DNA of 15,733 bases from an uncultured Lysobacteraceae bacterium (GTDB lineage Bacteria > Pseudomonadota > Gammaproteobacteria > Xanthomonadales > Xanthomonadaceae). The notes under the pieces were generated by a model. The model searched no databases. It had not been told where the DNA came from and saw nothing but the letters and a program-made list of their open reading frames with translations. The position numbers and the translations under genes were made by a program. The stretch spans positions 1-15,733 of the forward strand of contig CAMLSB010000029.1 of NCBI GenBank assembly GCA_946482565.1, given 5' to 3'. Within the stretch, counting starts at the first letter, position 1, and the number at the start of each line of letters is the position of its first letter. Shown here one piece after another: positions 13,941-15,733 of this stretch.

Positions 13941-15353
13941 TCAGATCGCGCGGGAAAACCGGGGCGCGGTGTCTTGGGCCTGGTTCGAACCAGTAAGGGG
14001 TGCGAGGTAGCGGTCGAAGCACATCGCGATATTACGCAACAACAGGCGTCCTTGCGTAGTCGCCACGATGCGGTCGGGGCCGACCCGGACCAGGCCGTCG
14101 GCTTCCAGCGGGGCCAGCTTCGCCAGCGCGTCGGCAAAGTAGCTGGCGAAATCGACGCCGTGGCGCCGTTCCAGCGCGCGGATCGGGATTTCGCCCTGGC
14201 ACATCAGGTGCTGGATCAGGTCCGCGCGCAGTACGTCGTCCTCGTCCAGGCGCAGGCCGCGGAACACCGGCAGGCGACCCTCGTCCAGCGCGATCTGCCA
14301 GCTGGGCAGGTCGCGCGGGTTCTGGCTGAAGCTGTCGCCGACGTGGCTGATCGCGCTCACGCCCAGGCCCACCAGGTCGGTATTGGCGTGGGTCGTGTAG
14401 CCCATGAAGTTGCGGTGCAGCGTGCCGCGTTCCTGCGCCTGCGCCAGGTCGTCGTCGGGCAGGGCGAAGTGGTCCATGCCGATGTAGGCGTAGCCGGCGG
14501 CGGTCAGCTTGTCGATCGCCAGCTGCAGCAGCGACAGTTTCGTCGCCGCGTCCGGCAGCTGCGACGCGTCGATCTGGCGTTGCGCCTTGAACATCGCCGG
14601 CAGGTGCGCGTAGCTGTAGACGGCGAGCCGGTCGGGCCGCATGTCGACCACGGTGTCGAGCGTGCGCGCGAAGCCCTCCGCCGACTGCTTCGGCAACCCG
14701 TAGATCAGGTCGATGTTCACCGAGCGGAAGCCGGATTCGCGGCAGGCATCGACCACCGCGCGCGTTTCCTCGACCGACTGGATCCGGTTCACCGCTTCCT
14801 GCACCGCCGGGTCGAAGTCCTGCACGCCGAAGCTGGCGCGGTTGAAGCCCAGCGCGCCGAGCGCACGCACGTCCGGCGCGTTGGTGAAGCGCGGGTCGAG
14901 TTCGATCGACAGGTCGCGCGTCGACGAATCGGAGAAGCGGAAATGGCTGCGCAGCGTGTCGAGCAGTTCGCCCAGCTGCGCCGGCGACAGGAAGTTGGGC
15001 GTGCCGCCGCCCAGGTGGAGCTGGATGACTTCACGGTCGCGGTCGAACAGCTCGGCCGTGAGCGCGATCTCGCGGTACAGGCGCACCAGGTAGGCCGCGC
15101 CGCGCGCGAGGTCGCGGGTGATGATGCGGTTGCAGCCGCAGTAGAAGCACGGGCTCATGCAGAACGGCACGTGCACGTACAGCGACAGGCGCGGCGGGAT
15201 CGGGTCGCCGTTGCTGGCGGCGACCGCCGCGCGCAGTTCCGCTTCGCCGAAGCCCGCGTGGAATTGCGGCGCGGTCGGGTACGAGGTGTAACGCGGGCCC
15301 GGCCGGTCGTAGCGGGTCAGCAGGTCGGCGTCGAAGCGGGGATTGGCGAGCAT
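13941..15353 (-). CDS. hemN: Oxygen-independent coproporphyrinogen III dehydrogenase (HemN)
   Basis: A 470-residue radical-SAM enzyme that converts coproporphyrinogen III to protoporphyrinogen IX without oxygen, in the cytoplasm. The start RYDRPGPRYTSYPTAPQF (14-31) is a HemN hallmark. The cluster motif is C65-x3-C69-x2-C72-x-C74 (E. coli 62, 66, 69, 71). GGGTPNFL (SAM glycine motif) and the HemN C-terminal domain (from about 370) follow. The ATG at 15353 is preferred to the GTG at 15371 because the predicted transcript start lies at 15354. No Shine-Dalgarno sequence precedes the ATG, which fits a leaderless message. It heads a probable hemN-fnr operon. Confidence 0.96.
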   Translation of the reverse strand: MLANPRFDADLLTRYDRPGPRYTSYPTAPQFHAGFGEAELRAAVAASNGDPIPPRLSLYVHVPFCMSPCFYCGCNRIITRDLARGAAYLVRLYREIALTAELFDRDREVIQLHLGGGTPNFLSPAQLGELLDTLRSHFRFSDSSTRDLSIELDPRFTNAPDVRALGALGFNRASFGVQDFDPAVQEAVNRIQSVEETRAVVDACRESGFRSVNIDLIYGLPKQSAEGFARTLDTVVDMRPDRLAVYSYAHLPAMFKAQRQIDASQLPDAATKLSLLQLAIDKLTAAGYAYIGMDHFALPDDDLAQAQERGTLHRNFMGYTTHANTDLVGLGVSAISHVGDSFSQNPRDLPSWQIALDEGRLPVFRGLRLDEDDVLRADLIQHLMCQGEIPIRALERRHGVDFASYFADALAKLAPLEADGLVRVGPDRIVATTQGRLLLRNIAMCFDRYLAPLTGSNQAQDTAPRFSRAI

Positions 15354-15402: not shown

Positions 15403-15430
15403 CCGGAACCCAACTGCGGGATCTGCTTCG

Positions 15431-15554
15431 GGGAGGGCGACGGAAGCGTGCAGTGACTTCCGGGGGACGCCGTGAATACGTCCATGTAGGCTCGTCGGCG
15501 CCATCCATGGCGCCGAAGCCCCCGGAAGTCCCCGCACGCTCCCGCCGCCGCCCC
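15431..15554 (-). repeat. Structured intergenic repeat, copy 1 (long stem with two ANGGAN-loop hairpins)
   Basis: Read on the minus strand this is a long imperfect inverted repeat. 15519-15554 pairs with 15431-15466 over 36 positions: 30 Watson-Crick, 4 G-U if transcribed from the minus strand, 2 mismatches. The innermost 11 bp (ACTTCCGGGGG) are perfect. Inside lie a perfect 10-bp hairpin (15495-15516, TCGGCGCCAT and its complement) and a second small hairpin (15477-15488). Both loops read AUGGAU or AUGGAC. It resembles copy 2 in sequence and architecture. There is no U-run, so an ordinary terminator is unlikely. It may be a REP-like element or a structured RNA. It lies 29 bp upstream of the hemN FNR box, in hemN orientation. 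Confidence 0.8.
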
Positions 15555-15641
15555 AAGCGAGTCCCGCGTCTTCGTCGGAAGAGCAAAAGCGCGTCGCGTC
15601 TCGAAGCTTCGGCGCGCCACGTCCGCGTGTCGCCGTGGATG
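15555..15641. other. 87-bp spacer between the two divergently oriented structured repeats
   Basis: No gene is visible. It contains the palindromes CGAAGCTTCG (15602-15611) and GGCGCGCC (15611-15618), and an AGCAAAAGC stretch (15582-15590) that is AT-rich against its surroundings. If the two flanking elements are RNAs, their 5' ends both face this spacer, so it would be the place for divergent promoters. I see no convincing -35/-10 pair on either strand. Confidence 0.3.
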
Positions 15642-15733
15642 CGAGGGGTTCGGGTCGGGGACGTCGAAAACATGGATGTTTTCGAAGAGGCTCCATGGAT
15701 GGATTCACGCCGGTCCCCGGCCCGGACCCCTCG
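15642..15733 (+). repeat. Structured intergenic repeat, copy 2 (inverted relative to copy 1; may continue past the window)
   Basis: Read on the plus strand, 15642-15662 pairs with 15713-15733 over 21 positions with no mismatch (19 Watson-Crick, 2 G-U). Directly inside is a perfect 10-bp hairpin (15664-15685, TCGAAAACAT and its complement). A linker follows with a second hairpin (15692-15703, UCC/GGA). The linker matches copy 1 at 21 of 27 positions. Inner-stem bases GCGC of copy 1 are AAAA here, with the opposite arm changed to match. Both loops read AUGGAU. The outer stem reaches the last base of the window and may extend beyond it. Confidence 0.8.

Follow-up and report, generated by a model that had tools for sequence, protein, structure and literature searches.

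A palindromic sequence with twin hairpins occurs twice at the end of a 15,733-nucleotide stretch (contig CAMLSB010000029.1) from an uncultured Lysobacteraceae bacterium, hereafter the window, that is, the whole stretch of DNA analyzed. Each hairpin presents an ANGGAN loop, and the question raised by this locus is whether these loops are sites for CsrA/RsmA carried by a dispersed repeat, or whether they are kept for another reason or arose by chance.

Two copies of a twin-hairpin element in the window

The first-pass annotation had described two repeats with paired ANGGAN hairpins at this place as candidate CsrA/RsmA-binding RNAs. Read directly from the sequence, both copies are real and the four loops lie where they had been placed, within the following features:

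15429..15556, minus strand: element copy 1, whole palindrome including the outer stem, ~128 nt, delimited by stem extension
15431-15466 / 15519-15554: inverted arms of copy 1, within element copy 1
15454-15528, minus strand: R2-type covariance model match of copy 1
15495..15516, minus strand: copy 1 hairpin 1, 8 bp, loop AUGGAU at 15503-15508
15469..15491, minus strand: copy 1 hairpin 2, loop AUGGAC at 15480-15485, from family covariation
15472-15476, minus strand: UUCAC bulge of copy 1 hairpin 2, closing GCC/GGC
15642..15733 (start approximate), plus strand: element copy 2, truncated at the window end
15652-15726, plus strand: covariance model match of copy 2
15664..15685, plus strand: copy 2 hairpin 1, 8 bp, loop AUGGAU at 15672-15677
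15689..15711, plus strand: copy 2 hairpin 2, loop AUGGAU at 15695-15700
15704-15708, plus strand: UUCAC bulge of copy 2 hairpin 2, closing GGC/GCC
13941..15353, minus strand: gene for a hemN-type radical SAM protein, neighbor of copy 1

The 17-nt gap noted between the loops of each copy was found again (15486-15502 on the minus strand in copy 1, 15678-15694 on the plus strand in copy 2), as were the ten-mers ACAUGGACGU and ACAUGGAUGU, one per copy, with CCAUGGAUGG at the other site. The annotation covered the core alone, and a long outer stem surrounds both hairpins in each copy. Copy 1 lies ~75 nt upstream of the start of the hemN-type gene and is co-oriented with it. Copies 1 and 2, the first on the minus and the second on the plus strand, make up an inverted composite, which recurs at places in the nearest genome, G001.

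Fold prediction on pieces of 78 to 94 nt gave hairpin 1 in both copies and hairpin 2 in copy 2; within AUGGAU, it paired the first A with the last U. In copy 1, the hairpin-2 region takes other partners at minimum energy, and hairpin 2 of this copy therefore rests on family covariation. Fold z-scores for copies 1 and 2, respectively, were -5.31 and -7.10 on the ANGGAN strand and -6.13 and -6.82 on the opposite strand; since they are similar on both, fold energy cannot separate the strands. The pattern ANGGANNNATTCAC has two matches in the window, both exact; with one mismatch allowed, 0.25 would be expected and two were reached in 7 of 200 shuffles, which is modest.

The closest contig found with the hemN protein (95% identity) was L001, from the Lysobacteraceae metagenome assembly G001, which aligns with the window at 88.5% over 11 kb and begins within the same element, upstream of hemN. 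As read by eye, copy 1 and its L001 counterpart differ at three base pairs, all three compensated (C-G to A-U in hairpin 1, A-U to C-G in hairpin 2, and GCC/GGC to GGC/GCC), and their loops differ at an N position alone. These differences may reflect a swap for another repeat copy.

A dispersed family selected on the ANGGAN strand

The suggestion that the element is a dispersed repeat was borne out by covariance-model matches in surveys of the family, the class, and the phylum. The model R1, built from 12 copies, matched in at least 35 of 149 Lysobacteraceae genomes, its counts there being lower bounds obtained with strict filters and with up to 32 candidates scored in each genome (13 in the class survey and 16 in the phylum survey below). 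The model R2, built from 84 aligned matches, had matches in at least 69 of 369 class genomes, a few of these positives being lone matches close to the E-value limit that may be due to chance, and in at least 19 of 299 phylum genomes; the survey samples overlap in some genomes. Among 48 named genomes, taken from 80 loci, R2 matched in 8: the Lysobacteraceae assembly, Thermomonas sp. SJ789, T. haemolytica, Luteimonas terricola, Halomonas smyrnensis (39 matches), H. stenophila (48), H. nitroreducens (6), and Modicisalibacter xianhensis (5). At the same threshold, it gave no match in the Lysobacter, Pseudoxanthomonas, Rhodanobacter, Dyella, and Pseudomonas genomes among these 48, so the distribution of the element is patchy. 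By pattern count, G088 holds 73 copies and G112 61. With one copy each, blastn returned no match in the E. coli collection, one weak 26-base match in the plasmid collection, and none in the phage collection; a short core with variable stems makes a poor blastn query, and these negatives thus do not prove absence.

Closely similar copies of the element were also observed at unrelated places in G001. Several contigs break inside the element (window end at 15733, start of L001, ends of L089, L094, and L097), which makes it a likely assembly breakpoint and copy numbers likely underestimates. Variant forms were seen as well. In a subfamily (L093, L096, L098, L171, L178, and many free-loop matches), UACUUG(C/U) replaces UAUUCAC after hairpin 2, and the conserved stretch at this position thus has two alternative states. 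Weak R2 matches of the phylum survey (L372 to L374, in G592, G596, and G675) have a longer hairpin 2 and end in UUC(A/G)CGGCGU, as in the main form. The named Pseudomonas loci L066, L070, L071, L072, and L080 carry another repeat of paired hairpins with ANGGAN loops, enclosed by an outer stem; R2 did not match it in the portions searched of four of these genomes. Two Thermomonas loci (L016 12287, minus strand; L019 3997, minus strand) carry a different hairpin with a single CCATGGATGG center.

The structure is conserved through compensation. In the 84 matches (71 distinct rows), 96.8% of cells are paired and 22 of 24 pairs are changed on both sides, with a covariation score of 0.604 compared to 0.153 in shuffles and at most 0.108 with the structure slid. 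The 31 class-wide copies (28 loci) gave 95.0% of cells paired, 21 of 24 pairs changed on both sides, and a score of 0.724 compared to 0.166 and at most 0.123, respectively; both alignments were fitted to the structure and hence lean towards it. By stem extension, the element has a median length of 108 nt (range, 67 to 183; 5th to 95th percentile, 81 to 129).

Because palindromic DNA would covary too, the strand was tested separately, in the outer stem beyond the model, a region in which G-U cannot have been favored by any model, extended with equal penalties for G-U and A-C. Read on the ANGGAN strand, 209 unique stems held 191 G-U pairs versus 32 A-C. Copies in one genome are not independent; counted per genome (66, with the window as one), G-U exceeded A-C in 42, the reverse held in 6, and 18 were tied, mostly genomes with neither kind of pair (p 1e-7). 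A separate phylum set gave 38 G-U versus 2 A-C (10 genomes versus 1, with 6 ties). G-U is tolerated far more than A-C, and the ANGGAN strand is therefore under selection as a fold of its own. The excess is compatible with folded single-stranded DNA, from which an excess of this sign would also be expected.

Since a model that contains ANGGAN favors copies that read ANGGAN, the loops were assessed with a pattern that leaves all six loop bases free; it covers hairpin 2 in one family, with conserved flanks required. It yielded 553 matches in 29 of 149 Lysobacteraceae genomes, and its backward control yielded none in the 149. Loss of the loop GGA had been named beforehand as what would refute the CsrA reading; among the 150 matches listed of the 553 (13 of the 29 genomes), 148 read ANGGAN, the exceptions being CGGGAC and ATGGGT. 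The N positions do vary among the listed matches (T 99, G 41, A 8, C 2; and C 71, T 71, G 8). In 259 distinct model-found copies, ANGGAN is present at hairpin 2 in 256 and at hairpin 1 in 244, ten of the 15 non-ANGGAN hairpin-1 loops being AGGAT, one base short. The earlier remark that loops stay fixed while stems vary thus holds across the family, whose stems are compensated and whose loops vary at N positions: the constant positions are A, GGA, and the closing C-G, and both N positions are free.

The paired spacing likewise extends beyond the window, at 17 nt in 165 rows, 16 nt in 80, and 18 nt in 1, across the 246 rows, out of 265 unique ones, in which both motifs are complete, the 19 that lack an intact motif falling outside the count. 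Of these 246 rows, 68 carry ACANGGANGU at hairpin 1, 101 carry it at hairpin 2, and 23 contain UACARGGAUGU. Among perfect hairpins of 16 Pseudomonas-type loci, ANGGAN centers numbered 13 of 296 versus 0 to 2 for each of 15 other center patterns; most of them belong to one repeat and are therefore not independent. No ANGGAN excess among perfect hairpins was found in 46 Lysobacterales loci (5, versus up to 9 for other patterns), nor by a crude count in 400 kb of the positive genome G109 (6, versus 10 CNGGAN).

Genomic position, csrA co-occurrence, and related repeats

Genes were called with a small custom gene finder, which on the window missed a cytochrome b561 gene (1210-1827). By these calls, only 1 of 263 copies overlaps a gene, and the element is thus intergenic. 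The 196 single copies were sense to both neighbors in 75 cases, antisense in 46, between convergent genes in 49, between divergent genes in 20, and at an open end in 6; the ratio of convergent to divergent gaps (49:20) differs from that of the other gaps at the same loci (73:101; p 6e-5). For single copies between co-directional genes, the median distance to the stop codon was 46 nt in sense and 44 nt in antisense orientation, and that to the next start 109 and 158.5 nt, respectively. Sense copies prevailed over antisense in Halomonas and Modicisalibacter (41:14, p 0.0004), with no sense bias outside Halomonas relatives (6:11 in 28 class-survey genomes, 28:21 in the rest). Thus, copies lie 3' of genes, without a general preference for sense orientation. 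A TTTT run within 10 nt after the stem was present in 1 of 280 copies (6 of 280 on the other strand), and the element is therefore not an intrinsic terminator.

The csrA family PF02599 was detected in 145 of the 149 family genomes, the 35 element positives all among them; in 313 of 369 class genomes, including 64 of 69 positives; and in 180 of 299 phylum genomes, including 19 of 19 positives, so that the element occurs in none of the 119 csrA-less phylum genomes. The Fisher p values, in which descent is not corrected for, were 0.57 (family), 0.04 (class), and 5e-5 (phylum). Given how widespread csrA is, its co-occurrence with the element is weak evidence within the family, and at the phylum level it is confounded by descent. 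In the element positives G001, G088, and G109, csrA encodes complete proteins of 66 to 80 residues; that of G001, the nearest genome but a different assembly from the window's own, reads as an intact CsrA. PF02599 was not found in five of the 69 class positives (G161, G221, G252, G347, and G493); G493 also lacks alaS and thus looks incomplete, and in G347 and G221 alaS is present, with no csrA in the remainder of the alaS contigs.

At the gathering cutoff, no Rfam family matched in the window. Below it, the Yersinia small RNA (sRNA) Ysr224 matched a window copy on the opposite strand (31.4 bits, cutoff 70), and at E values up to 1 it matched five of nine sources, always on the strand opposite to the element and twice at E near 1. 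This similarity led to the comparison with YPAL/RU-2. In local alignments with the printed RU-2 sequence, from an excerpt of PMC2759123, copy 1 scored 67 and the best copy 74, and 200 shuffles, each aligned against all copies, reached at most 32. The core is homologous, with two hairpins whose RU-2 loops read AAGGAU and AUGGAU, and the printed RU-2 has a UUUAC bulge and a GGCGUC end (excerpt of PMC2759123). Both elements are intergenic and on the 3' side of genes. However, YPAL measures ~167 to 168 bp in the excerpts available, whereas the present element is mostly 81 to 129 nt long (median, 108), and it was therefore filed as a relative of YPAL rather than YPAL itself. Moreover, YPAL has been described in Yersinia and Erwinia, whereas the present element is found in Lysobacteraceae, Halomonas relatives, and others and sometimes forms inverted pairs. 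The primary YPAL paper reportedly found higher levels of transcripts with YPAL in their 3' part.

In the portions available of the respective papers, YPAL is an intergenic, mobile sequence of ~168 bp with variable target-site duplications, possibly influencing transcript stability (PMC2229807), a structured intergenic family (PMC2267715), and abundant in Yersinia except Y. ruckeri, with three copies in E. coli (PMC2847712). No specific protein partner of YPAL is named in the portions available of PMC2229807, PMC2267715, PMC2847712, and PMC2759123, those of the first two containing no mention of CsrA. No paper in the collection searched names both YPAL and CsrA, and among the papers listed by the literature searches none links CsrA with a repeat; matches listed by a literal-sequence search were mostly unrelated primer or oligonucleotide papers.

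The described CsrA ligands, as given in an excerpt of PMC7652899, comprise the SELEX consensus RUACARGGAUGU and ANGGAN hexaloops with variable N, and a CsrA dimer bridges sites 10 to 63 nt apart, with an optimum given as >18 nt. The element resembles them by its ANGGAN motifs in apical hairpin loops and by a spacing of 16 to 18 nt, within this bridging range. It also recalls CsrB/CsrC and RsmX/Y/Z as a presumed CsrA ligand with paired ANGGAN hairpins, but these have many sites and a dedicated sRNA gene, in contrast to two sites per copy of a dispersed repeat. The GTAG/CGTC REP palindromes associated with RAYT are likewise intergenic palindromes, often in inverted dimers (excerpt of PMC3733652), whereas the element forms a three-way junction whose two hairpins carry loops of the CsrA type, and its presence is not tied to PF01797. 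ERIC/RU-1, of similar size, is likewise an intergenic palindrome of enterobacteria and can form part of transcripts, but it is kept separate from YPAL/RU-2 in the portions available of PMC2229807 and PMC2267715 and is set apart here by description. A link with RAYT was tested and is unsupported, PF01797 being present in 27 of 35 positives and 74 of 114 negatives (p 0.22); no such Y1 transposase was found in G001, which is incomplete, or in the high-copy genomes G112 and G088.

What the conserved loops may be for

We propose that the window features, copies of a dispersed, probably mobile, YPAL-related repeat, would as RNA probably be a two-site CsrA ligand. Cross-genome comparison argues well for the loops being CsrA sites, at which binding is predicted; the first-pass interpretation as a whole is partly supported. 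What would be new is the join, i.e., that a described repeat, now found class-wide, has as its conserved feature a putative two-site ligand of the CsrA type. In the proposed model, RNA of the ANGGAN strand would fold into a three-way junction in which the outer stem is long and variable and hairpins 1 and 2 each present a CANGGANG loop, with the loops 16 to 18 nt apart and most likely bridged by one CsrA/RsmA dimer. Usually lying just past a stop codon, the element would be transcribed by read-through. It may then be speculated that CsrA on the element could protect the end of that mRNA, that tens of copies per genome could jointly titrate CsrA, or, alternatively, that CsrA could be recruited locally. 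Antisense copies may be inert, or would depend on transcription from another source to act. A broader and more doubtful possibility is that a class-wide family of mobile repeats spreads paired CsrA sites and, transcribed into the tails of mRNAs, works as a distributed sponge that determines the level of free CsrA, with copy number (tens to >70 in some genomes) tuning the regulator between species and unrelated mRNAs being put under Csr influence.

The loops could instead be kept for a mobilizing or DNA-processing enzyme of the IS200/RAYT type that reads a folded single DNA strand, their likeness to CsrA sites being incidental. We regard this as unlikely, and yet it keeps real weight, since it would explain the unbiased gene orientation outside Halomonas relatives; the element is dispersed, with copies of close similarity at unrelated places in G001, and single-stranded DNA also tolerates G-T pairs. 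Against it, the fixed A, GGA, and closing C-G, the variation at both N positions, and the pairing of hairpins at 16 to 18 nt are CsrA's own rule, and the Y1 transposase is not required, as seen from the counts given above. The unbiased orientation outside Halomonas relatives does count against a simple RNA role, and the Ysr224 match on the opposite strand, the strand-neutral fold energy, the five class positives with no csrA match, and the count of perfect hairpins in G109 count against the CsrA reading.

A generic 3' hairpin, acting through its long outer stem as an mRNA stabilizer or weak terminator with no part for CsrA, would fit the position just past stop codons and the preference for convergent over divergent gaps. 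Such a hairpin leaves the invariant loops unexplained, and we consider it improbable, even with the possible effect of YPAL on transcript stability mentioned in the excerpt of PMC2229807. Chance likeness in a GC-rich palindrome might be entertained from the window alone, where the pattern is modestly unlikely; against the loop-blind search, its backward control without a match in 149 genomes, and the class-wide copies, it becomes extremely improbable, and it is the genome surveys, beyond the modest within-window odds, on which we exclude it.

Intergenic palindromes of bacteria, YPAL among them, have a description going back years. Were the loops of this YPAL-related repeat CsrA sites, as we favor, a large repeat family would gain a specific partner, and the Csr network a mobile layer, variable in copy number, that predictions centered on 5' leaders would miss.

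Two further observations concern gene context and arrangement. Between 9282 and 15353 of the window, the hemN-type gene, a Crp/Fnr-type regulator, the nitric oxide reductase NorB, and NnrS stand in a row that looks like a denitrification cluster. At L360 (G721:C1:94431-95642), six elements are arranged in direct tandem with a period of ~227 bp, each unit having a GGCTGAAGCCGCTCCTACA hairpin between copies, which gives 12 ANGGAN loops in ~1.2 kb.
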